A program made the translations under genes and the position numbers. The notes under the pieces are model-generated. The model saw only the letters and a program-made list of their open reading frames with translations, ran no database searches and had not been told where the DNA came from. A stretch of 64,000 bases of DNA from positions 62,001-126,000 of the forward strand of contig NZ_JANHOK010000004.1 of assembly GCF_026929975.1 (NCBI RefSeq). Direction: 5' to 3'. Below, one piece after another: positions 8,651 to 62,265 of the stretch (its first letter is position 1; every line of letters begins with the position of its first letter). Origin of the DNA: Bartonella sp. F02 (lineage in GTDB: Bacteria; Pseudomonadota; Alphaproteobacteria; Rhizobiales; Rhizobiaceae).

Positions 8651-9555
8651 AAACTCCCTGCCTTTAATTTCTTTAAGATACGTTCTTCCTCTTTGACATT
8701 AGCATAATAACGCGCTAATTCCTCATCAGATAAAGCAACAGTCATGCGATCAGAAAGACGCAAATCAATACTTAAAATATTACGAGACAAAAGATCTTCT
8801 ATTACTCCTCGCTCAATAAGAGAAGCAAGTCTTTCAATAGCTTTCTTCTCGGGCAACATAATCTGCATTCCATTATCTAAGAAAATATCCCAACGCCGAT
8901 CACCTACACGCACATAAGAACGAATCCGAGTATGCAAGTGCGGATACGCAGAAAGTGCTTGTATAAAAAATTGAGCTTCCTTTTGCGCACCAGAACCAAC
9001 CACAAGAGGCAACCCAGAAACCAAATCTGCTTGGAATGGAACAATGACATACCCTGTGCGATCAATAATATCCACCATACCATTATGTTGCCAAATCGCA
9101 TAAGGTTCACGTTCAATCATAGCAATTTTTATCTGATTAGGATAAATTTTTTGAACAACAGCCGATTGTATCCAAGGTTGCTGTTCCAAAATAGAACGTG
9201 CTTTATCAACGTCAAAATCAACAATTGATAACTGAGCATTCAGCCCCAAAACTGTCAAAACATCTTTCTTCGCAGTACGTTTATTGCCACTCATATAAAC
9301 ATCCGTAATCATAAGACCGACACTAGATGTTGTAGTTTTCACAACATTCTTCATACGCCCACTCGATGAAATTCCATAAAGCGCAGAAAGAAAGAAAAAA
9401 AGCAAAACAGCAAAAGAACCAAAATGGCGCGGAACATAATTATCTAACAAAGCGAACTGGAGAACAAACCCTGAAAAGCGACGATAAAAACGCGGCAAAA
9501 ATGCTCCTGAGCACACCGCTAAAGTATCTACCTTCTCAACACTCAACGCATACAT
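8647..9555 (-). CDS. ftsQ: cell division protein FtsQ
   Basis: FtsQ is a bitopic inner-membrane protein that links FtsA/FtsZ to the septal synthases. It has a short cytoplasmic N-terminus, one membrane segment ([17 protein letters not shown], about residues 45-62), a POTRA domain (starting near [18 protein letters not shown]), and the FtsQ beta domain. The ATG at 9555 (MYALSVEK) is preceded by GGAGG with seven bases between. The track-length alternative at 9576 would extend seven residues into ddlB. The chosen start already overlaps the ddlB end by 13 bases. About 302 residues. Confidence 0.93.
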
Positions 9556-10463
9556 GACGCGTCCTCCACCATCCACTTAACAAGATCACCGTAAGTACGG
9601 CCACTTACTTTTGCAATATCAGGGACAAGAGAAGTTGGCGTCATACCAGGCTGCGTATTAATTTCAAGCCAAACCAGCTCTCCTGTTTCCTCATCAAAAC
9701 GAAAATCAGAACGACTAACACCTCGACAACCAATAGCCTGATGCGCCGTTAAAGACATTCTTTGCACCTTTTGGTAAATATTTGGTGAAAGTTGAGCAGG
9801 GCAAATATGAAGAGATCCACCAAACTTGTATTTCGAGTCATGATCATAAAACCGAAAATGTTTATCCGGCATAATTTCACAAACATCTAAAACTTCATCA
9901 CCCAAAACAGCACAAGTAAGCTCACGCCCTCCAATATATTTTTCAACAATCACCTCATCTTCATACCCCCACTGTGCACTCACAATACTTTGTGGAGGCA
10001 AAACTTCACCACTCCTCACAATCACAACACCAAAACTCGACCCTTCACGCACGGGTTTAATCACATAAGGCGGCTCCATTGGATGCTCTAATTCTATAGC
10101 AAAACGATTCATCACACGAGAAGGAGCAACTGTAACACCAGCGCTCTCCGCAACAATTTTTGCACGCCCTTTATCCATTGCTAACGCCGATGCCATAACA
10201 CCAGAATGCGTATAAGGTATTTTCAAATATTCAAGAATCCCTTGGATACATCCATCCTCACCAAACGTTCCATGCAGTGCATTCAAAGCAACATCTGGCT
10301 GCATTTCTTCCAAAACAGAAGCAATCCGGCCATCAACATCAACACGACTTACACGATATCCTTGCTTCTCAAGAATATCAGCACACCCCTCACCAGAAGA
10401 TAAACTAATAGAGCGCTCAGATGAAAACCCGCCCATCAGCACAGCAATATGCTTATCCTCCAT
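9543..10463 (-). CDS. ddlB: D-alanine--D-alanine ligase
   Basis: This ATP-grasp enzyme joins two D-alanines to make the dipeptide that MurF adds to the precursor. Visible are the N-terminal [17 protein letters not shown] motif, the central lid [18 protein letters not shown], and the C-terminal catalytic and metal-binding region [17 protein letters not shown]. Length 306 residues, as expected. It lies 233 bp after murB, the largest gap inside the cluster, so an internal promoter is possible there. Which Ddl isoform it is cannot be told from sequence alone; the name ddlB follows its dcw position. Confidence 0.95.
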
Positions 10464-31487: not shown

Positions 31488-32027
31488 GTGGCGCGTCCTG
31501 AAACTAAAGCAAAAACTGCATTTGGAAAACGCTTACGTCGTGTACGTCTCGCTTTAGGAGACCCGTCACGTGAAGCGTGGGCTAAAAATTTTAGCATGAC
31601 AAAAAACTCTATCGCTTTTTATGAGCGTGGGGAAAGAGAACCTAATCTTAGTGTGTTGCAAACATATCGTATGTTATATGGTGTCAATATTAATTGGCTT
31701 TTAACCGGACAAGGTAAAATGTTTGATGCCGAATACACTAAAAGTGAGTTTGATTGGAATTACTTTATTAAAAAAATTGAGAGACTTGAAAATATTCTCT
31801 CTAAAGATAACCATAGTAATCAGACTCTCCCTGAAAATATTGAAAGTTCTTATAAGAAATTACAGCAATATTTGTCTACAAAAGATATACCTAATGGTTT
31901 TAATCAAAAAGCAGCAACATCTTTAGTAGATATCAAAGCAAAAATGGTTAACTCTTATGCTCTTAGCCTTTTTATCGATTTACTGATCCGAAGTGTATCA
32001 CACAATAAACCTTTTGCTAATCAATAA
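31488..32027 (+). CDS. phage-type helix-turn-helix transcriptional regulator
   Basis: The N-terminal 70 residues form an XRE/Cro-type DNA-binding domain: FGKRLRRVRLALGDPSREAW, then NSIAFYERGEREPNLSVLQT, then INWLLTGQGKMFD, which is a typical ending for phage repressors of this class. The remaining 110 residues are helical and charged and carry no LexA-type peptidase motif that I can see. GAGGGAG lies nine bases before the start codon; the start is GTG (ATG-equivalent), followed by GCGCGTCCT. It opens the AT-rich island and is followed by a terminator. Likely a remnant or resident prophage/island repressor. Confidence 0.8.
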   Translation: MARPETKAKTAFGKRLRRVRLALGDPSREAWAKNFSMTKNSIAFYERGEREPNLSVLQTYRMLYGVNINWLLTGQGKMFDAEYTKSEFDWNYFIKKIERLENILSKDNHSNQTLPENIESSYKKLQQYLSTKDIPNGFNQKAATSLVDIKAKMVNSYALSLFIDLLIRSVSHNKPFANQ

Positions 32028-32063
32028 GTTTTTGTGTTATTAATCAATAAGTTTTTGTGTTAT
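32018..32063 (+). repeat. perfect 23-bp tandem duplication at the regulator's stop
   Basis: Positions 32018-32040 are repeated exactly at 32041-32063 (unit begins TAATCAATAAG and ends TGTGTTAT). The first copy contains the stop codon of the regulator. It looks like a recent slippage event. Confidence 0.9.
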
Positions 32064-32414: not shown

Positions 32415-32594
32415 ATGTATTTTGAAGTATTTCAAGGAGTCCATAATCAGTGGTATTGGCGTTTAATTTCAAAAGATGAACAAAAAATTGCTTTTTCTAG
32501 TAAAGGTTATCCCACCAAACAAGATATTCTTGCAAATATTGAGCAGCTGAAAGAAATTACGCGAAATACCTCTATCAGAGAATTACAATATTAA
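32415..32594 (+). CDS. YegP-like DUF1508 small protein
   Basis: This 59-residue protein starts MYFEVFQG and shows one DUF1508 repeat: a strand with QWYWRLIS, then KIAFSSKGYPTKQDILANI, which matches the family pattern of a YWRL strand, a SEGY-like turn and a helix. YegP proteins usually have one or two such repeats; their function is unknown. GGTAGGAG stands five bases before the ATG, a strong ribosome binding site. It lies 390 bp downstream of the regulator, beyond a terminator, so it has its own promoter. Confidence 0.85.
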   Translation: MYFEVFQGVHNQWYWRLISKDEQKIAFSSKGYPTKQDILANIEQLKEITRNTSIRELQY

Positions 32595-33220
32595 TGTTAG
32601 CGAAATTTACTCAATCTCCACATATTTTTTCAAAAATATATTTGTTCAATTGCTTCCCTCTGTAGCATTAGATGGCTAACCACAGAATAGTAACATTTAT
32701 CTCATACATATAATTTGAAATAGCGTTTTATATTATCATAAAGTTATTACAATTCGTACTTTTTCAACGATTTTAAGAATAGATTTCCGTACTAATCCTC
32801 ACATTGAAATTATGTCATTCTCTAGAAAAATAACATTCCTATTGGGTTAGAAATATTTCTAGTTTTTTGTTTTGTATCTTAAAACTCTTTAAAACCGAAT
32901 ATGGAAACAAGCTTACATTTAAAAAATATTCTTATTCTCTTTATACAGTCATAGCTATAGTCTCAAAAAAGACAAAAGAATTGTACGCCTTCATTTCAAC
33001 CTCAAGAAACTTTCAGAAACTCAAAAATAAACTTTCCTCTAATAGGAATCGTCAGCAATATTTTTCTTTGGTTTCAAAATTTTCTTTTTTCACACATTTC
33101 ATACAGAAACATGAATGAATTAATATTTCGATTTTTCTCTAATAATTTTAATATTATTAGATACATAAAAACAATAATTTAATAATAAAGAATACAATTA
33201 GTATAAATATTAAAAATACG
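32595..33220. other. gene-poor stretch, about 630 bp
   Basis: Very AT-rich. A TTG-started frame at 32867-33118 has no ribosome binding site and poor codon character, so I do not call it. Nothing else is visible. Confidence 0.4.
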
Positions 33221-33250
33221 AATTGACATTAAACAAACGAATCAATATTA
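33221..33250 (+). repeat. 30-bp island repeat, copy 1
   Basis: Matches the element at 35148-35177 at 25 of 30 bases. Both copies start AATTGACA, contain CGAATCAATA and carry an ATTGA/TCAAT inverted repeat with 14 bases between. TTGACA could act as a -35 box. It lies about 200 bp upstream of the first tiny membrane protein. Confidence 0.6.
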
Positions 33251-33447
33251 AGGCCATATCGTAATTGATAGAAGAGTAAACAAAATATCTGATTGTTGTC
33301 TTTTACAGTTATAGATAGAAATATTTTGTCATAAATTGAAATTAAGATATTTCTATAAAAAAAAGAGAAAATGCTTTCGTGTTTTATGAATAGTGATATT
33401 TAGTGTAAACTAGAGTAAACTATTTAAATAATGAAGGAGGTAGTGTG

Positions 33448-33519
33448 ATGGTTATTGAGCCATTTTTTTATGTCATTGTAGCAGGTATAACGTTTATCAT
33501 TGCTCTTATAACATCATAG
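33448..33519 (+). CDS. tiny membrane protein, 23 residues
   Basis: MVIEPFFYVIVAGITFIIAL is the start of a 23-residue product that is essentially one membrane helix. AAGGAGG, a perfect ribosome binding site, lies seven bases before the ATG. I do not recognise the sequence. The strength of the translation signal and its place among similar tiny genes are the reasons to call it. A short toxin-like or regulatory membrane peptide is possible, but no function can be assigned. Confidence 0.6.
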   Translation: MVIEPFFYVIVAGITFIIALITS

Positions 33520-33896
33520 TTATAATGTATCAAGCAAATTCAAAGTCTATACACAATCGATATCTTTTAGAAAATAAATAGTTTTTATAAATTAAAAATT
33601 TAAAATCTTGTAATTTGTATAAATATTATACAGAAAAAATAAAAAAAGTGAGTGTCTTGATCGGTTGAGAGTTTTTTTACTTGGCCATTCAGTTATTACA
33701 TACGAAGAGAGTTTATTATTATACAAATAATGAACTTAATCTTAAATGTTAAGCGTGTTCATTCAAAAGAGACACTAAATAGTTTTTATGGTTACTCAAT
33801 ATATCTAAAAAGAAAATATTATTGTTACTATTTAGCTTATATGAAAATAAATTCATATGAGCGAAATATAGTGCCTAAAGTGAAGGAGAATTTAAA

Positions 33897-34007
33897 ATGC
33901 TTGCTGAATTAGGAATATCAGGTCTCTCTGTCTTAGTGATGGGGGTTGTAACTGGGTTTGCTGTTTTTAAAAAGTTAATTAGTACAATCCTTGCTTACAC
34001 ATTATAA
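33897..34007 (+). CDS. tiny membrane protein, 36 residues
   Basis: The product starts MLAELGISGLSVLVMGVVTG and has one hydrophobic helix followed by a short basic stretch (FKKLISTILAYTL). AAGGAGA lies eight bases before the ATG. The membrane helix with lysines after it predicts the C-terminus inside. It is followed after 35 bp by the next tiny gene, so the two could share a transcript. Not recognised. Confidence 0.6.
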   Translation: MLAELGISGLSVLVMGVVTGFAVFKKLISTILAYTL

Positions 34008-34042
34008 GTAGGTTCAAATAGTTTGATAGAAAGGAAGTACCA

Positions 34043-34162
34043 ATGCCTTTTATAGCAATTATAATATTGATGGCGGTTATAACTGGGACAACTCTTCTTG
34101 TTGATATGGTTGCTGATACGACTTATGAACAGGCAATAAAAAATAAGGAACGTTCAACATAA
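34043..34162 (+). CDS. tiny membrane protein, 39 residues (MP..ITG..TT type)
   Basis: The product starts MPFIAIIILMAVITGTTLLV; one membrane helix is followed by a charged tail (DMVADTTYEQAIKNKERST). AAGGAAG lies six bases before the ATG. Its pattern (MP at the start, ITG in the helix, a TT pair in the tail) is shared with the protein at 37035 and partly with that at 35360, so they look like paralogues. Function unknown. Confidence 0.6.
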   Translation: MPFIAIIILMAVITGTTLLVDMVADTTYEQAIKNKERST

Positions 34163-34240
34163 AAATAATAACAACCCCAAAATAGTTCTTCAAGGTAGAA
34201 TTAGAACATAATAAATAAAATATTATAGAAGGAAAAAGGA

Positions 34241-34351
34241 ATGTTGTTTACAGGAGCTGCATGGATAGTGACAGTAGCGGTTTGGGCAGGAGTAGTTGTT
34301 GGAAAGTTAGTTGTTTCGCTCACTAAATTAGTTAAACTAGCATCTGGATAA
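34241..34351 (+). CDS. tiny membrane protein, 36 residues
   Basis: Starts MLFTGAAWIVTVAVWAGVVV, then GKLVVSLTKLVKLASG. One membrane helix with two tryptophans, then an amphipathic basic segment. AGAAGGAAAAAGGA stands directly upstream of the ATG. About 80 bp after the previous tiny gene. Not recognised; the pattern recalls small holin-like or type I toxin-like peptides, but that is only a resemblance in shape. Confidence 0.55.
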   Translation: MLFTGAAWIVTVAVWAGVVVGKLVVSLTKLVKLASG

Positions 34352-34835
34352 ATAAGTTTTAGTTCTTACATTTTGGAAATATTTTTAAAAAATGTATTAG
34401 AAATAAATTGATTTTGAATATAAAAATTCAATCTTTTTCAAAAGGTGGATCTGTTTCTTGTTACTTTGTTATGTTTAAAAAGTTATGATGGCAGCTATCT
34501 TTAATTTTTCTTCATTTTATTTTTAACTTCCCCTTATATCATATCAAGCTTTATATTTTGGTATAAAAATCACCAAGTCTATAATGATATTAAATCAATT
34601 AAATAATATTGTTTTGATATGATGAGGCATTACTTTTCAATAGAGATAATATTCATTGTTTTCTAAATCTTAGAGAGGTAATTTGTAATGTTTAAACCTA
34701 TGATGTATATTATACTATCAAAAAATTGTAGATAGTGAAATTTATGAATTTTAAGTATTATATTCTATATCAATTTATCCGTAATAAAAGATCAAATTGT
34801 CAGTAATAAAAACGTAATAGAATGAAAAGAAAAAT

Positions 34836-34925
34836 ATGTGGAGTTGGTTAGACATACTGTACTCACTTGTAATGCTATGTGTGTCTTTTATAACTGTTGT
34901 GAGTTGTTCACTTACTGCGTTTTAA
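34836..34925 (+). CDS. possible tiny membrane protein, 29 residues
   Basis: Starts MWSWLDILYSLVMLCVSFIT and is almost wholly hydrophobic. The ribosome binding site is weak (AGAAAAA), so the call is less certain than its neighbours. About 40 bp upstream is a sequence (AATTGTCAG...) that resembles the first part of the 30-bp island repeat. Confidence 0.4.
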   Translation: MWSWLDILYSLVMLCVSFITVVSCSLTAF

Positions 34926-35147
34926 TTATTTGCTTTGTTCTGTATTCTTTAAAGAAAATATAATGTTGTATAAATTGATAGGGCAAACAATAACTTATTA
35001 ATTTAACAAGATTATAATTAAGTAGAAAATTAATAAATAAATTGCATATTCCCACCTTAAAAGGTGTCTTCATTTAATTTCTGAAAGCTTTGTAAAATAA
35101 TAAATGCGAATACCGATATTATTATATCGTATTTTATTAAAAATAAA

Positions 35148-35177
35148 AATTGACAGAAAATAAGCGAATCAATAGTA
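35148..35177 (+). repeat. 30-bp island repeat, copy 2
   Basis: Second copy of the element at 33221-33250, identical at 25 of 30 bases. It ends 37 bp before the tiny gene at 35215, a spacing suited to a promoter or operator. Confidence 0.6.
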
Positions 35178-35214
35178 AAAAACGAATTTTAATAATTAAT
35201 TTAAAGAAAAAAAT

Positions 35215-35295
35215 ATGTTTATTCTCGTTAGCTCGCTTATAGTTAGTTATTTTGCTATGTCAGCTTTTGTTTATGGCGTTTCAACATTAATATAA
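35215..35295 (+). CDS. tiny membrane protein, 26 residues
   Basis: Starts MFILVSSLIVSYFAMSAFVY; a single hydrophobic helix with no charged residue. The upstream AAAGAAAAA is a weak ribosome binding site. It sits just after copy 2 of the island repeat and 64 bp before the next tiny gene. Not recognised. Confidence 0.45.
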   Translation: MFILVSSLIVSYFAMSAFVYGVSTLI

Positions 35296-35359
35296 TATCT
35301 AAACTTATAAAGACATATAACTCAAAACAATAATTTAAACAGTATAGGATAAACAGAAA

Positions 35360-35548
35360 ATGTCTATATTTGTAATAGCAGGAATACTTTTAGGATCATT
35401 ACTTTTTACACCCGTAATAATTGATACTACAACAAGCGCTTTAAAGCTTCCTAAAAAAACAGATTTTAGAGGAGATCCTATAAATCCCGTCGTAAAAAGA
35501 TCATCTAAAAACTCAACAAGTCAAACTCAAACCCCAAAAAGACCATAA
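35360..35548 (+). CDS. small membrane protein with basic tail, 62 residues
   Basis: Starts MSIFVIAGILLGSLLFTPVI: an N-terminal membrane helix, then a threonine-rich turn (IDTTTSALKL) and a polar, basic tail of about 30 residues rich in Lys, Pro, Ser and Thr (NPVVKRSSKN...TPKRP). AGGATAAACAG is a loose ribosome binding site. The helix and the DTT part resemble the proteins at 34043 and 37035. The tail would lie free in the cytoplasm or periplasm. Function unknown. Confidence 0.6.
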   Translation: MSIFVIAGILLGSLLFTPVIIDTTTSALKLPKKTDFRGDPINPVVKRSSKNSTSQTQTPKRP

Positions 35549-35748
35549 GAAATTGATATGAAAGAAACTCGAATAAGAACTAATTGACATCATTACAGGC
35601 AGTGTTTATAAACATTTTGTGTCGTTCATAAAAACGACTTAAATCTTAAACTATCTTTTTGTGTTAATTTCATTTTTCCTCATCTCGTTCATCGGTAAGT
35701 ATAAACGGATTAACATTAGATGATAAGATTCCAAAAAGGAGAAAAAAT

Positions 35749-35841
35749 ATGTGTCCATTTCTCATAGCATTGCTTTCACTAGCTAGTATGTTCGGTTTTA
35801 TGGGTTTCGCAACACAGGTGGCAAATAGCGTCGCTTCATAA
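35749..35841 (+). CDS. tiny membrane protein, 30 residues
   Basis: Starts MCPFLIALLSLASMFGFMGF and ends ATQVANSVAS. AAAAAGGAGA lies six bases before the ATG. A strong terminator follows 48 bp after the stop. With a good ribosome binding site and its own terminator it is one of the best-supported tiny genes of the island. Not recognised. The minus-strand frame over it is a shadow. Confidence 0.6.
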   Translation: MCPFLIALLSLASMFGFMGFATQVANSVAS

Positions 35842-35889
35842 AATAGAAATTTTTTTCGATAATCTTTATACATCTAAAGAAAAATTTTC

Positions 35890-35922
35890 ATTATCTCTAG
35901 TATATAACTAGAGATAATTTTT
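35890..35922 (+). terminator. terminator after the 30-residue gene
   Basis: A perfect 11-bp stem (ATTATCTCTAG with CTAGAGATAAT) closes a 7-base loop and is followed by TTTT. It ends the transcript of the gene at 35749. Confidence 0.75.
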
Positions 35923-36018
35923 GCGAAAACGGTACCACTTCACTGTTTTTGCAAAGACGGCACTACTCCACTGTCTTGTCAAAATTCTGTTTGTCAAGCA
36001 AAATGCAAACCGACAAAC
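35921..36018 (+). other. nested, mutually exclusive hairpins
   Basis: Hairpin 1 pairs 35921-35933 (TTGCGAAAACGGT) with 35942-35954, 13 bp. Hairpin 2 pairs 35954-35960 with 35971-35977 (AAGACGG with CTGTCTT, including one G-T pair) and competes with hairpin 1 for base 35954. The cores are alike (AAAAC/GTTTT and AAGAC/GTCTT), with the third pair changed on both sides. Hairpin 3 pairs GTTTGTC (35989-35995) with GACAAAC (36012-36018). Function unknown; a structured RNA or a protein-binding array are both possible. Confidence 0.5.
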
Positions 36019-37034
36019 CCCGTACAACACAGTATTAAGCAAAGAAAATAACTAAGGAGAGAACTGCTTTTACTGATGAAGTCCGCTAATTTTGCAATAA
36101 TCAGTGGAGTAGACCGTAAGTTTAAAACAGTATTAACTTCTTACCGTTTTTTGCAGAAAAAAGAGTCAACTCATGCCCTTTTAACGAAAGTAATATATTG
36201 TTTATGCTTTGAATCCTTCTATTTTGTGAAACATTTAACTTTCATATTTATCATAAATAACACTTTATAACACCACTAAGAACTCATTACGTTACTATTT
36301 GAATATACTTTGTGTCAATACTCTACAGAAATATTTTATGATCTTGATGAAATTTTTCTGTTTATAAACTGAATGATTTTGCCGTTGATATTATAAAGTT
36401 CTGAGTTTTTCTAACTTAATAATACAAGAATGCATATTTTTTGAAAATACAAAAAACATTTAAAGAGCTTCATCTGTTCTGCAAACTGTTTTTGTTTATG
36501 AAATCAAAATACCTCGTAATAATTTTAGAAACTCTCTACATCTTTATGAGAAAAAGTATTAAATCAGTCGGCATCTTACAATTATAGAATATATCAACAA
36601 GAAAATGGTAAAATTTACTTATGAAATAAGACGCAGCATCATTTATATATCATAATTATAATACAATGCTGTCTTGTATGAGACTGTTCAAATTCAATAG
36701 AGTTTTACTTTATTAAATAATTATAAATTGCCTCTAATAGCTTTACGGACTCATTAAAAATACGCTCAACAGTCACATTTCTTTATGTTGACGAAAATAA
36801 TTTAAAATGCATTATTTTACAATTTAACACTTTTGTACTTAATCTTTTTAATAGAGAAACATTTTATCGTTTAATTTTCTTGCTCTAAAAAGATAAATTA
36901 TATTCTATTATAGTTTCTCTTCTATTTTATGACTTGTAATTCTCGTCTCAGATTATTCTTTACTGTTTATTATAAAAAATACAAATTATGGTATATAATT
37001 GCACCAAAATAACACTATCATAAAAGGAGTAAAA
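36019..37034. other. gene-poor stretch, about 1 kb
   Basis: AT-rich. A frame at 36076-36270 starts 16 bases after AAGGAGA, too far for a normal start, and has ordinary non-coding composition after its first third. I see no other candidate. It may hold decayed small genes. Confidence 0.4.
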
Positions 37035-37184
37035 ATGCCCATTTTTGCATTTGTTTTCGGATGTTTATTAATTACAGGAATCATTGGCGGGACACATGCA
37101 CTCACTACGCATCTCGTAGAATCAAAGCGCGTTGGTCGGTGTGGTGGCGGAATGCATCAGCCCCCCCCTTTAATGAACAGTTAA
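37035..37184 (+). CDS. small membrane protein, 49 residues, with a C tract
   Basis: Starts MPIFAFVFGCLLITGIIGGT; a membrane helix followed by HALTTHLVESKRVGRCGGGM and a proline turn. AAAAGGAGT lies five bases before the ATG at 37035, which decides this start over an upstream ATG at 36999. The MP, ITG and TT positions match the protein at 34043. A run of eight C near the 3' end encodes the prolines; slippage there would change the last residues. Function unknown. Confidence 0.65.
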   Translation: MPIFAFVFGCLLITGIIGGTHALTTHLVESKRVGRCGGGMHQPPPLMNS

Positions 37185-37796
37185 CAAAAAAGTAATTTTA
37201 CGCTACCGATTAATTATTTTATAAAATTCACTAATTCATAAATATTTGTCATTTCTAAGAAAGTTGAACTTTAATCACGCCAACTATATTAAGAGATAGC
37301 GTTACATCAGCATAAAAATAGAGAATGCTTTAATTATTGTACTTAAAAGGATTATGTAAAACTATAAATATGCATCAATCACTTTTGAAATCTTAGTGTT
37401 TTTTTCAAATATTATCAAAAAATCCATTTATTATAATTGTTAACGAGCACTAGAGTCTAGTGCTCTTCACGCAGATTTGTTATACAATACTTTAATGTGC
37501 GAAAAACATTGAAAGAGTATTTTTTGTTTCAAACCGTACAACAATTTAAAAATCAATATTTTCTTCTCACAGTGTAAAACTAATAACACTTTTTACAATA
37601 AAAACCCTATCAGAAACAGATCTTTAATACTAGTTTCAATAAAAAATTCCAATCAACTCTTCCAAGCGTGATTTCACTGCAAGACTGCGAAAATACCTAA
37701 GCAGAATAATCGACTATGCGAATCTCAAACAAAAACCAATGAAAAAAATGATTAAAGAGAAATCTTTGTTTATAGTCGAAAATAAACTTTATAAAA
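37185..37796. other. gene-poor stretch, about 610 bp
   Basis: No reading frame. It contains the perfect palindrome at 37445-37465 and otherwise only AT-rich sequence up to the tRNA gene. Confidence 0.4.
37445..37465. repeat. perfect palindrome with 10-bp arms
   Basis: GAGCACTAGA and TCTAGTGCTC flank one central base. No T run follows on either strand, so it is a poor terminator; a protein-binding site is as likely. Confidence 0.6.
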
Positions 37797-37873
37797 TGGT
37801 GGGCCCGGAGGGACTCGAACCCCCAACCAAGCGGTTATGAGCCGCTGGCTCTAACCAATTGAGCTACAGGCCC
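37797..37873 (-). tRNA. tRNA with CAT anticodon (tRNA-Ile2 or elongator Met)
   Basis: The 77-base gene folds fully on the minus strand: acceptor stem GGGCCTG/CGGGCCC, D arm AGCTCAATTGGTTAGAGC, anticodon stem AGCGG/CCGCT with loop CTCATAA, T arm GGGGG/CCCTC with loop TTCGAGT, discriminator A and encoded CCA. The anticodon is CAT. The GGGCCTG acceptor stem matches what I recall for alphaproteobacterial tRNA-Ile, which favours the AUA-reading Ile2 tRNA made by lysidine modification, but Met cannot be excluded by eye. It borders the accessory island. Confidence 0.95.
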
Positions 37874-38019
37874 TAAGACCGCTCCTCTCTAAACTAAAAC
37901 ACTTTCTAATACAAGACCCTGTTTAAATTATAATAAATATTTTTTCTTTTCTTTCTATTTTTTCTCAAAATATTAATTTAATTTACAGAAACTACAAAAA
38001 ACACAATGAAGGAGTGGAT

Positions 38020-47445: not shown

Positions 47446-47697
47446 ATGGAAGATACAAATATTGGCTGGATTATCGCTATTATTATTGGCGGCCTTGCAG
47501 GATGGGCTGCACAGTATTTTATGAAAAGTCGAGCAGGAATATTACTAAACATTGTTTTAGGGGTTCTTGGTGCTGCGTTAGCTAGCTTCTTTTTTGGTCT
47601 TTTAGGTATCAATTTTGCAGGATGGTTTGATTACCTCATTTCAGGTTTTATCGGAGCCTGCATATTAATATGGATAGGTCGGAAAATTCGACCATAA
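47446..47697 (+). CDS. GlsB/YeaQ/YmgE-family membrane protein
   Basis: An 83-residue protein with three membrane helices and glycine-rich motifs (IIGGLAGWAAQYFM, NIVLGVLGAALASFFFGLLG, and GFIGACILIWIG). This is the pattern of the family once called transglycosylase-associated proteins; no enzymatic role is proven and many members respond to stress. AAGGAGG lies five bases before the ATG. It stands alone between two gene-poor stretches. Confidence 0.9.
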   Translation: MEDTNIGWIIAIIIGGLAGWAAQYFMKSRAGILLNIVLGVLGAALASFFFGLLGINFAGWFDYLISGFIGACILIWIGRKIRP

Positions 47698-61206: not shown

Positions 61207-62265
61207 TTAAAGTGCTGCACTTGAAAATATTTCTTTATACACATTTCCAATTGCAACTGCTTCTTTTTCTAGAGGGAAATGTGTCCGAACATGAGAATAA
61301 GCCTTTTCTCCTGCTTTTAATGTTTTTTCTAAATCGGCAAAATACGGCTCAATGGCTTCAATTAAAGCTGACCCATCTCCTGCTTTCACAACTGTGCCTG
61401 TTCCTTCTATAACCAAATCTTCATAAATACCCACATCACTAGCCACAACAGCTGTCTGTGAAGCCATCGCTTCTAATGGTGTTAACCCAAAACCTTCCTC
61501 CCGAGAAGGTGCGACATAAAGTGACATACGGCGGTACCACCGGTGTGTATCCAGAATCTCTCCAAGAAAAATAATACGATCACTCAAATCGGAAGCCGTA
61601 ATCTTTCTACGTAATTTTTTCTCAAAATAACAATGCTGTTCTGTAGTACGACCCGCAATAATCGCTGTCCATTCGGGATAACGCGGCAATAAAGCTATCA
61701 TTGCATCGACAAATAAATCAGTTCCCTTTGAATAGCGTATACGCCCAAAACATCCTATCGCATATTTTCCTGGAAACCCTGCAGCAGAAAAACAATCATC
61801 AGCCGTTTTGGGTGGTGAAAAACGCTCAAGATCTATTCCATGCATAATAACTTCATAAGGAACTTCTAAATAAGCCCCTGTACGTGCACTTGTAGCAATA
61901 ACCTTATCCATGCGACGAATTAACCACTTTGTAAATGGTTTATGGTGTCGTTGAGATGCTGACGTAAAGACAAGCTTAAGCTTCATTCGCAAAACATCGC
62001 GCAAAAAAACCCCACACAGCATCTCAATATTACGCCGCGCATGCCAAATACGAAATGGTTTTCCTATAGGAGCTTTCCAAAGTCCGAAAAGATCCTTAAA
62101 AGAGAGAGCCGGAAAATTTTTCGGTAATCCCGGCCCTAAAGTGGATATAGCAACTCCTTGTTTTCTCTGTAACGGAACAAGTTGAATGATTGTAGAAGTA
62201 ACTCCTGACAAGCGTCTTTTAAAATGAGGAGCAATCACATCCGTTGTCTTTAAAGACATGCGCAT
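61207..62265 (-). CDS. lpcC: lipopolysaccharide core glycosyltransferase, LpcC-like
   Basis: A 352-residue GT4-family (GT-B fold) glycosyltransferase. The C-terminal donor-binding half has IGCFGRIRYSKGTDLFVDAM and the SREEGFGLTPLEAMASQTAV motif with the two glutamates typical of GT4. The N-terminal half begins with KTTDVIAPHFKRRLSGVTST. It resembles what I remember as LpcC, the mannosyltransferase of the LPS core in Rhizobium and Bartonella; the sugar cannot be proven here. It follows greA by 14 bp, so they form one transcript. Confidence 0.8.
   Translation of the reverse strand: MRMSLKTTDVIAPHFKRRLSGVTSTIIQLVPLQRKQGVAISTLGPGLPKNFPALSFKDLFGLWKAPIGKPFRIWHARRNIEMLCGVFLRDVLRMKLKLVFTSASQRHHKPFTKWLIRRMDKVIATSARTGAYLEVPYEVIMHGIDLERFSPPKTADDCFSAAGFPGKYAIGCFGRIRYSKGTDLFVDAMIALLPRYPEWTAIIAGRTTEQHCYFEKKLRRKITASDLSDRIIFLGEILDTHRWYRRMSLYVAPSREEGFGLTPLEAMASQTAVVASDVGIYEDLVIEGTGTVVKAGDGSALIEAIEPYFADLEKTLKAGEKAYSHVRTHFPLEKEAVAIGNVYKEIFSSAAL

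Follow-up and report, generated by a model that had tools for sequence, protein, structure and literature searches.

In the 64-kb window analyzed here (positions 62,001 to 126,000 of contig NZ_JANHOK010000004.1 from the 1.44-Mb, 19-contig genome of Bartonella sp. F02), the gap downstream of a gene for an XRE-type helix-turn-helix (HTH) protein contains an array of nine plus-strand open reading frames (ORFs), located between positions 33448 and 37184, for hydrophobic peptides of 23, 36, 39, 36, 29, 26, 62, 30, and 49 residues (hereafter, peptides 1 to 9). The array probably consists of real, fast-changing genes, so short that annotation can easily overlook them; it is unusual to find such tiny and mostly unlike genes clustered within one gap. 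As a tentative explanation, which we place first without holding it firmly, the gap would carry a genuine and lineage-specific set of one-helix membrane peptides of prophage accessory type, about seven to nine in number and translated.

An earlier note on this DNA, made from the letters alone, had described an AT-rich island with nine miniature genes, each built around a single hydrophobic helix, at least six of them with clear ribosome-binding sites and no larger gene in between, and this description proved accurate. The nine ORFs are present with exactly the lengths given, and by hydropathy each encodes a single-span peptide. The GC content is 27.1% across 33301–37250 and 23.9% in the DNA between the ORFs, and the longest other ORF within the array, of 67 codons, lies on the minus strand, overlapping peptide 8. 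Shine-Dalgarno (SD) matches of at least 5 nucleotides (nt), spaced 5 to 8 nt from the start codon, precede six of the nine ORFs (peptides 1, 2, 3, 4, 8, and 9). When ORFs in the region 33301–37250 were counted that combine an ATG start, a length of 18 to 90 residues, an SD match of at least 5 nt, and a hydropathy of 1.9 or more over 17 residues (the hydropathy and SD thresholds having been set after the array had been seen), six were found on the plus strand and none on the minus strand, whereas 1,000 dinucleotide shuffles averaged 0.027 such ORFs and never gave more than 1 (0 of 1,000 reaching six). Irrespective of the SD match, the counts were 10 and 1 on the two strands, compared with a shuffle mean of 0.82 and a maximum of 5. 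Elsewhere in the same genome, a sample of 222,415 bases yielded 11 SD-led hydrophobic ORFs on both strands, that is, approximately 0.05 per kb versus 1.5 per kb in the island, and the remainder of the window contains two more (at 47446 on the plus strand and 27559 on the minus strand).

Taken as a set, the ORFs are coding-like. Their pooled GC content at codon positions 1 to 3 is 0.44, 0.42, and 0.26, with 0.24 in the inter-ORF DNA, and their synonymous codon choice is shifted toward the usage of 14 long genes from the window in comparison with background sampling (p = 0.015), with the caveat that the summed score remains negative. When folded with up to 90 nt of upstream sequence, no ribosome site of the nine stands out as unusually closed, which speaks for ordinary translation. 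The strongest individual calls by SD site are peptide 1 (33448–33519; SD AAGGAGGT, spacing 6), peptide 2 (33897–34007; AAGGAG, spacing 8), peptide 3 (34043–34162; AAAGGA, spacing 7), peptide 4 (34241–34351; AAGGA, spacing 7), peptide 8 (35749–35841; AAAGGAG, spacing 7), and peptide 9, which lies apart from the others (37035–37184; AAAGGAG, spacing 5) and whose ATG start at 37035 is nested in a longer TTG frame, with a TATAAT noticed by eye at 36994–36999. The weakest are peptide 5 (34836–34925) and peptide 6 (35215–35295), both of which lack an SD site, and peptide 7 (35360–35548), with the weak SD AGGA; peptide 6 was called from position and hydropathy only, and peptide 5 is backed by homology. 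Peptides 3, 7, and 9 have charged tails.

Peptide 5 is homologous to two tandem copies in the same gap of Bartonella sp. A05 and to a 31-residue peptide encoded in Bartonella prophages; these relatives appear, from sequence comparison, to be new. By identity of the HTH protein, A05 (80%) and genome G004 (79%) are nearest to F02 among the genomes compared, none of which is closely related to it. In A05, the gap encodes MGILVGLYCLAMAIISIATVSISMTTL, preceded by the SD GGAGG, and, about 600 nt further, a diverged, decayed duplicate in tandem that lacks a usual start codon. The similarity of peptide 5 to the second A05 copy exceeds all of 500 shuffles and 1,000 codon shuffles, that to the first copy is less clear (15 of 1,000 codon shuffles at the protein level), and that to the 31-residue prophage peptide was matched by 0 of 1,000 codon shuffles and 0 of 100 shuffled queries. 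A profile of peptide 5 and the two A05 copies found matches in 21 of 71 Bartonella genomes (E ≤ 0.05; F02 and A05 counted), and in 17 of the 19 matched loci that were examined the 31-codon frame is intact (typically MTGPEILDAVYMISMIVISLLTIAFCLPAAF); AGGAG stands ahead of the start in 12 of these 17. A profile of 13 prophage copies, in turn, identified intact copies (E of 1e-18 or better) in 18 of the 71 genomes (19 copies), as well as partial copies in three genomes, and reached the second A05 copy with an E value of 9.4e-6. The prophage relatives of peptide 5 are under purifying selection: among 16 distinct coding sequences of the 31-residue peptide, the mean nonsynonymous (dN) and synonymous (dS) divergences are 0.10 and 0.29, respectively (dN/dS of approximately 0.35). 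Peptide 5 and the prophage peptide are alike in length class, the single helix, the residues L, D, Y, M, S, and T, and the terminal AF; the prophage peptide differs in being a single-copy gene between HicB-like genes, mostly with a strong SD site, and not part of an array.

The prophage setting is seen in the genomic neighborhoods. Among 15 that were fetched, 14 contain the 31-residue peptide. A HicB-like gene, complete or broken, directly precedes it in the same orientation in 8 of these 14, a second HicB-like gene faces it in 13, and a whole or partial terminase gene lies within reach in 8. In one such locus (L175), PHROG matches include terminase, tail completion, anti-repressor, and HicB-like proteins, and the 31-residue peptide is flanked by two mutually facing HicB-like genes (9470–10451). 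The peptide was also found in eight loci on viral contigs, one of which encodes residues 1 to 23 only; it is absent from the INPHARED phage collection, has no PHROG or PADLOC match among the families scanned, and in a sample of 297 genomes of the order, only two of them Bartonella, there was no match besides peptide 5 itself. A literature search found neither the island nor the prophage peptide described. The latter is a concrete, testable member of this class of genes, and its function would tell what such islands do.

To place the array in the genus, we compared 53 loci from 47 other genomes, comprising 41 whole intervals from the HTH gene to the gene for the downstream SIMPL-domain protein, and 12 flank pieces from six genomes in which these two genes lie apart. 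An SD-led peptide with a hydropathy of at least 1.9 on the HTH strand occurs in only one of the 53 loci, that of A05; four others encode weaker candidates (1.3 to 1.6). On this comparison, the array is specific to its own lineage. The interval itself varies from about 0.9 to 8.5 kb among the relatives, and five of its ORFs, from three relatives, include a phage endolysin in G004 (phrog_7; E of 2.7e-63) and two phage-type repressors in the gaps of two relatives other than G004; of the other two ORFs, one has no match and the other resembles PHROGs of unknown function. The gap is thus a landing place for phage-type genes. Orthologs of the HTH protein with at least 70% identity are present in 48 of 61 Bartonella genomes (F02 counted), and the named loci with this protein are all from Bartonella (35 of 35). 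Control of the array by the HTH regulator, which the earlier note suggested alongside another host regulator, is therefore unsupported: the gene is common across the genus where the array is missing, and we rejected it as a dedicated controller. The idea that the B. melophagi group conserves a peptide behind its HTH gene was likewise rejected. A 20-residue hydrophobic ORF with the SD AAGGAGG is present there in B. melophagi (L149, position 8796), but its frame is interrupted by an indel in close relatives, which is a reason for caution over each of the nine ORFs taken singly.

For the other peptides, searches yielded little. Neither peptides 2 and 4 nor a profile of peptides 3, 7, and 9 has a convincing match outside F02 among the 71 genomes. 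The remaining matches from these searches have E values of 0.02 to 0.1, in five genomes and in frames of 63 to 389 codons; peptide 4 matches its own genome only. Nor did these queries match the 31-residue prophage peptide beyond chance. Peptides 1, 6, and 8 were compared solely with the fetched loci, where neither peptide 1 nor peptide 6 has a relative. Against the 458 SD-led hydrophobic ORFs of these loci, peptide 5 alone outscores every shuffled version of the query (0 of 100), compared with 4 of 100 for peptide 7, 6 of 100 for peptide 8, and 15 to 91 of 100 for the rest; this control did not uphold earlier listing scores for peptide 8 (z of 6.2) and peptide 2 (z of 5.2). Pfam, NCBIfam, and PHROG contain no fitting family for any of the nine, and neither does PADLOC for the eight scanned; there were weak matches of peptide 7 to phrog_21511 (E of 0.015) and of peptide 8 to two Pfam families (0.03 and 0.15). 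Peptide 7 was not found in viral contigs, and neither peptide 9 nor the family of peptide 5 matches a solved structure, the profile of peptides 3, 7, and 9 giving only E values of at least 0.57. At the DNA level, the island region has one weak match in relatives, at 37555–37593, outside the ORFs.

Most of the nine peptides appear to be alike in form without visible common descent, a judgment tempered by the low power of descent tests at 23 to 62 codons. A first pairwise DNA comparison was inflated by the overlapping flanks of neighboring ORFs and was repeated without overlap and with codon shuffles. Among the 36 within-window pairs, one protein pair (3-7) and three DNA pairs (2-3, 1-7, and 4-7) then passed p = 0.01, with approximately 0.4 expected by chance at each level. 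The protein resemblance between peptides 3 and 7 was reached by 0 of 1,000 codon shuffles, and peptides 2 and 3 have a 23-nt block in common. A single common ancestor of all nine is unsupported by these tests.

The nine ORFs may be organized into two transcription units, peptides 1 to 5 and peptides 6 to 8, each behind one copy of a 44-nt promoter-like element, with peptide 9 standing separately. The two copies (33208–33251 and 35135–35178, plus strand) are 84% identical and comprise TTGACA, a 17-nt spacer ending in CGAATCAA, and a poor -10 hexamer (TATTAA and TAGTAA, respectively); with up to three mismatches allowed, the core occurs at only these two sites in the genome, both in the island. 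Copy 1 ends 196 nt before peptide 1, and copy 2 ends 36 nt before peptide 6. A weak hairpin at 35053–35066 (plus strand; z of -2.7 in a 36-nt stretch and -1.6 in a 91-nt stretch) might terminate the first unit, and a strong AT-rich hairpin with T residues on the plus side at 35890–35918 (z of -5.6; 0 of 200 shuffles) might terminate the second, the terminator scan having listed this hairpin behind peptide 8 on the minus strand only.

Given that the gap of relatives receives phage-type genes, the most likely origin of the set is in accessory genes of prophages, which would have been retained, partly duplicated, and subjected to fast divergence. To judge from their size and single helix and from the relatives of peptide 5 in prophages, the products may be accessory peptides of the inner membrane. 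Once the shared promoter is on, ordinary translation would be followed by insertion, and the inserted peptides would act on the membrane itself or on a membrane protein. Exclusion of phages and membrane adjustment under stress are the uses that we hold likeliest, favoring neither. Several observations weigh against this reading: only peptide 5 of the nine has relatives, a profile built solely from prophage copies fails to detect this peptide at E values up to 1, the island contains no phage or HicB-like gene, and island DNA has no match in phage and plasmid records. Furthermore, variable sites in the 31-residue peptide number 15, 11, and 17 at codon positions 1 to 3, a weak third-position excess, and promoter-like sites generally, with two strands taken together, are not above chance (45 versus a mean of 41.6), so that the proposed units rest on the 44-nt repeat. 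In a bolder version, the array would be a diversifying chromosomal bank of one-helix membrane peptides derived from prophages and driven by a shared promoter element, with every peptide blocking its own incoming phage or membrane process and with turnover fast enough to leave species almost no peptide in common; this strikes us as improbable, the least credible proposal considered here.

Type I toxins, such as Ldr, Ibs, Fst, and TisB, are short, have one hydrophobic helix, and sometimes occur in multiple copies in one intergenic region, and Pfam includes families of such toxins. That the island peptides damage membranes and are each silenced by an antisense RNA is an unlikely explanation, and yet the first among the alternatives: size and hydropathy fit (the short peptide with one helix being recognizable by hydropathy only), several peptides are clustered, and the kin of peptide 5 lie in prophages beside HicB-like antitoxin genes. 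DinQ, a 27-residue single-helix toxin, is likewise intergenic and adjoins duplicated antisense RNAs (PMC3567139). Against such toxins, the island peptides are mostly unlike each other, none of the ribosome sites is unusually closed within 90 nt upstream, there is no match to the Pfam type I toxin families at E values up to 1, and promoter-like sites on both strands together show no excess, in a scan that leaves room for an antisense RNA. An RNA-silenced role is thus possible but unsupported. The earlier note had proposed toxins, holin-like peptides, or regulators of membrane proteins; the prophage kinship of peptide 5 fits its phage-type part, whereas no toxin, holin, or defense family fits beyond weak matches, and the island has neither a holin family match nor an adjacent endolysin, with ORFs from 32.6 to 38.0 kb reaching no more than 83 codons. 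Host-serving regulators or subunits of membrane complexes, of the KdpF, CydX, and MgtS kind and unrelated to phages, would account for single-span peptides preceded by ordinary SD sites and for the charged tails of peptides 3, 7, and 9; we rank this second among the alternatives and consider it doubtful, given that no partner gene lies nearby and that the peptides show almost no conservation in the genus, in contrast to core-complex subunits. An assignment of peptide 9 to CydX, noticed by eye, was rejected because PF02322, which was matched in 10 of 14 control genomes, is absent from F02, leaving no cydB-type gene, and because no solved structure matched.

A mostly neutral origin, in which an AT-rich gap with T-rich codons generates hydrophobic ORFs by chance and peptide 5 is a decaying phage relic, ranks just behind these and is also unlikely. 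It draws on the broken ORF of B. melophagi, the A05 copy without a usual start codon, and the missing SD sites of peptides 5 and 6, but runs counter to the six ORFs observed where shuffles gave 0.027, to the empty minus strand, and to codon choice. YohP-type small membrane proteins are encoded by scattered single genes, as opposed to the nine in one gap here. Such stress-linked proteins (PMC12719787) are likewise shorter than 50 residues, single-helix, and not enzymes. In B. henselae, the nine Brt RNAs, a family whose members are 74 to 100% alike, occupy a hot spot together with XRE-type Trp regulators, each RNA lying 10 to 18 nt upstream of its regulator (PMC5387305); the island shares with these loci a Bartonella XRE-type regulator and nine members and differs in consisting of mostly dissimilar ORFs at least 1.4 kb downstream of one regulator.

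Upstream of the array, the HTH gene (31488–32027) is followed by a DUF1508 gene (32415–32594), and an exact tandem repeat with a 23-nt unit spans the HTH stop codon (32018–32063). Downstream are a tRNA-Met gene (37797–37873, minus strand) and the SIMPL-domain gene at 38014; in two other genomes (G035, contig C1, and G039, contig C24), two SIMPL-domain copies adjoin each other, one of those in G035 with an in-frame stop. Farther along the window, the ORF at 47446–47697, of 83 residues with the SD AAGGAGG, is the sole other small hydrophobic ORF with a strong SD on the plus strand. On the prophage-bearing contig of genome G038 (L187, 3187–3430), a different small membrane peptide (MDYGLAISLLSISVIVLNIIVFF...) is encoded in two tandem copies, with the SD AAAGGA.

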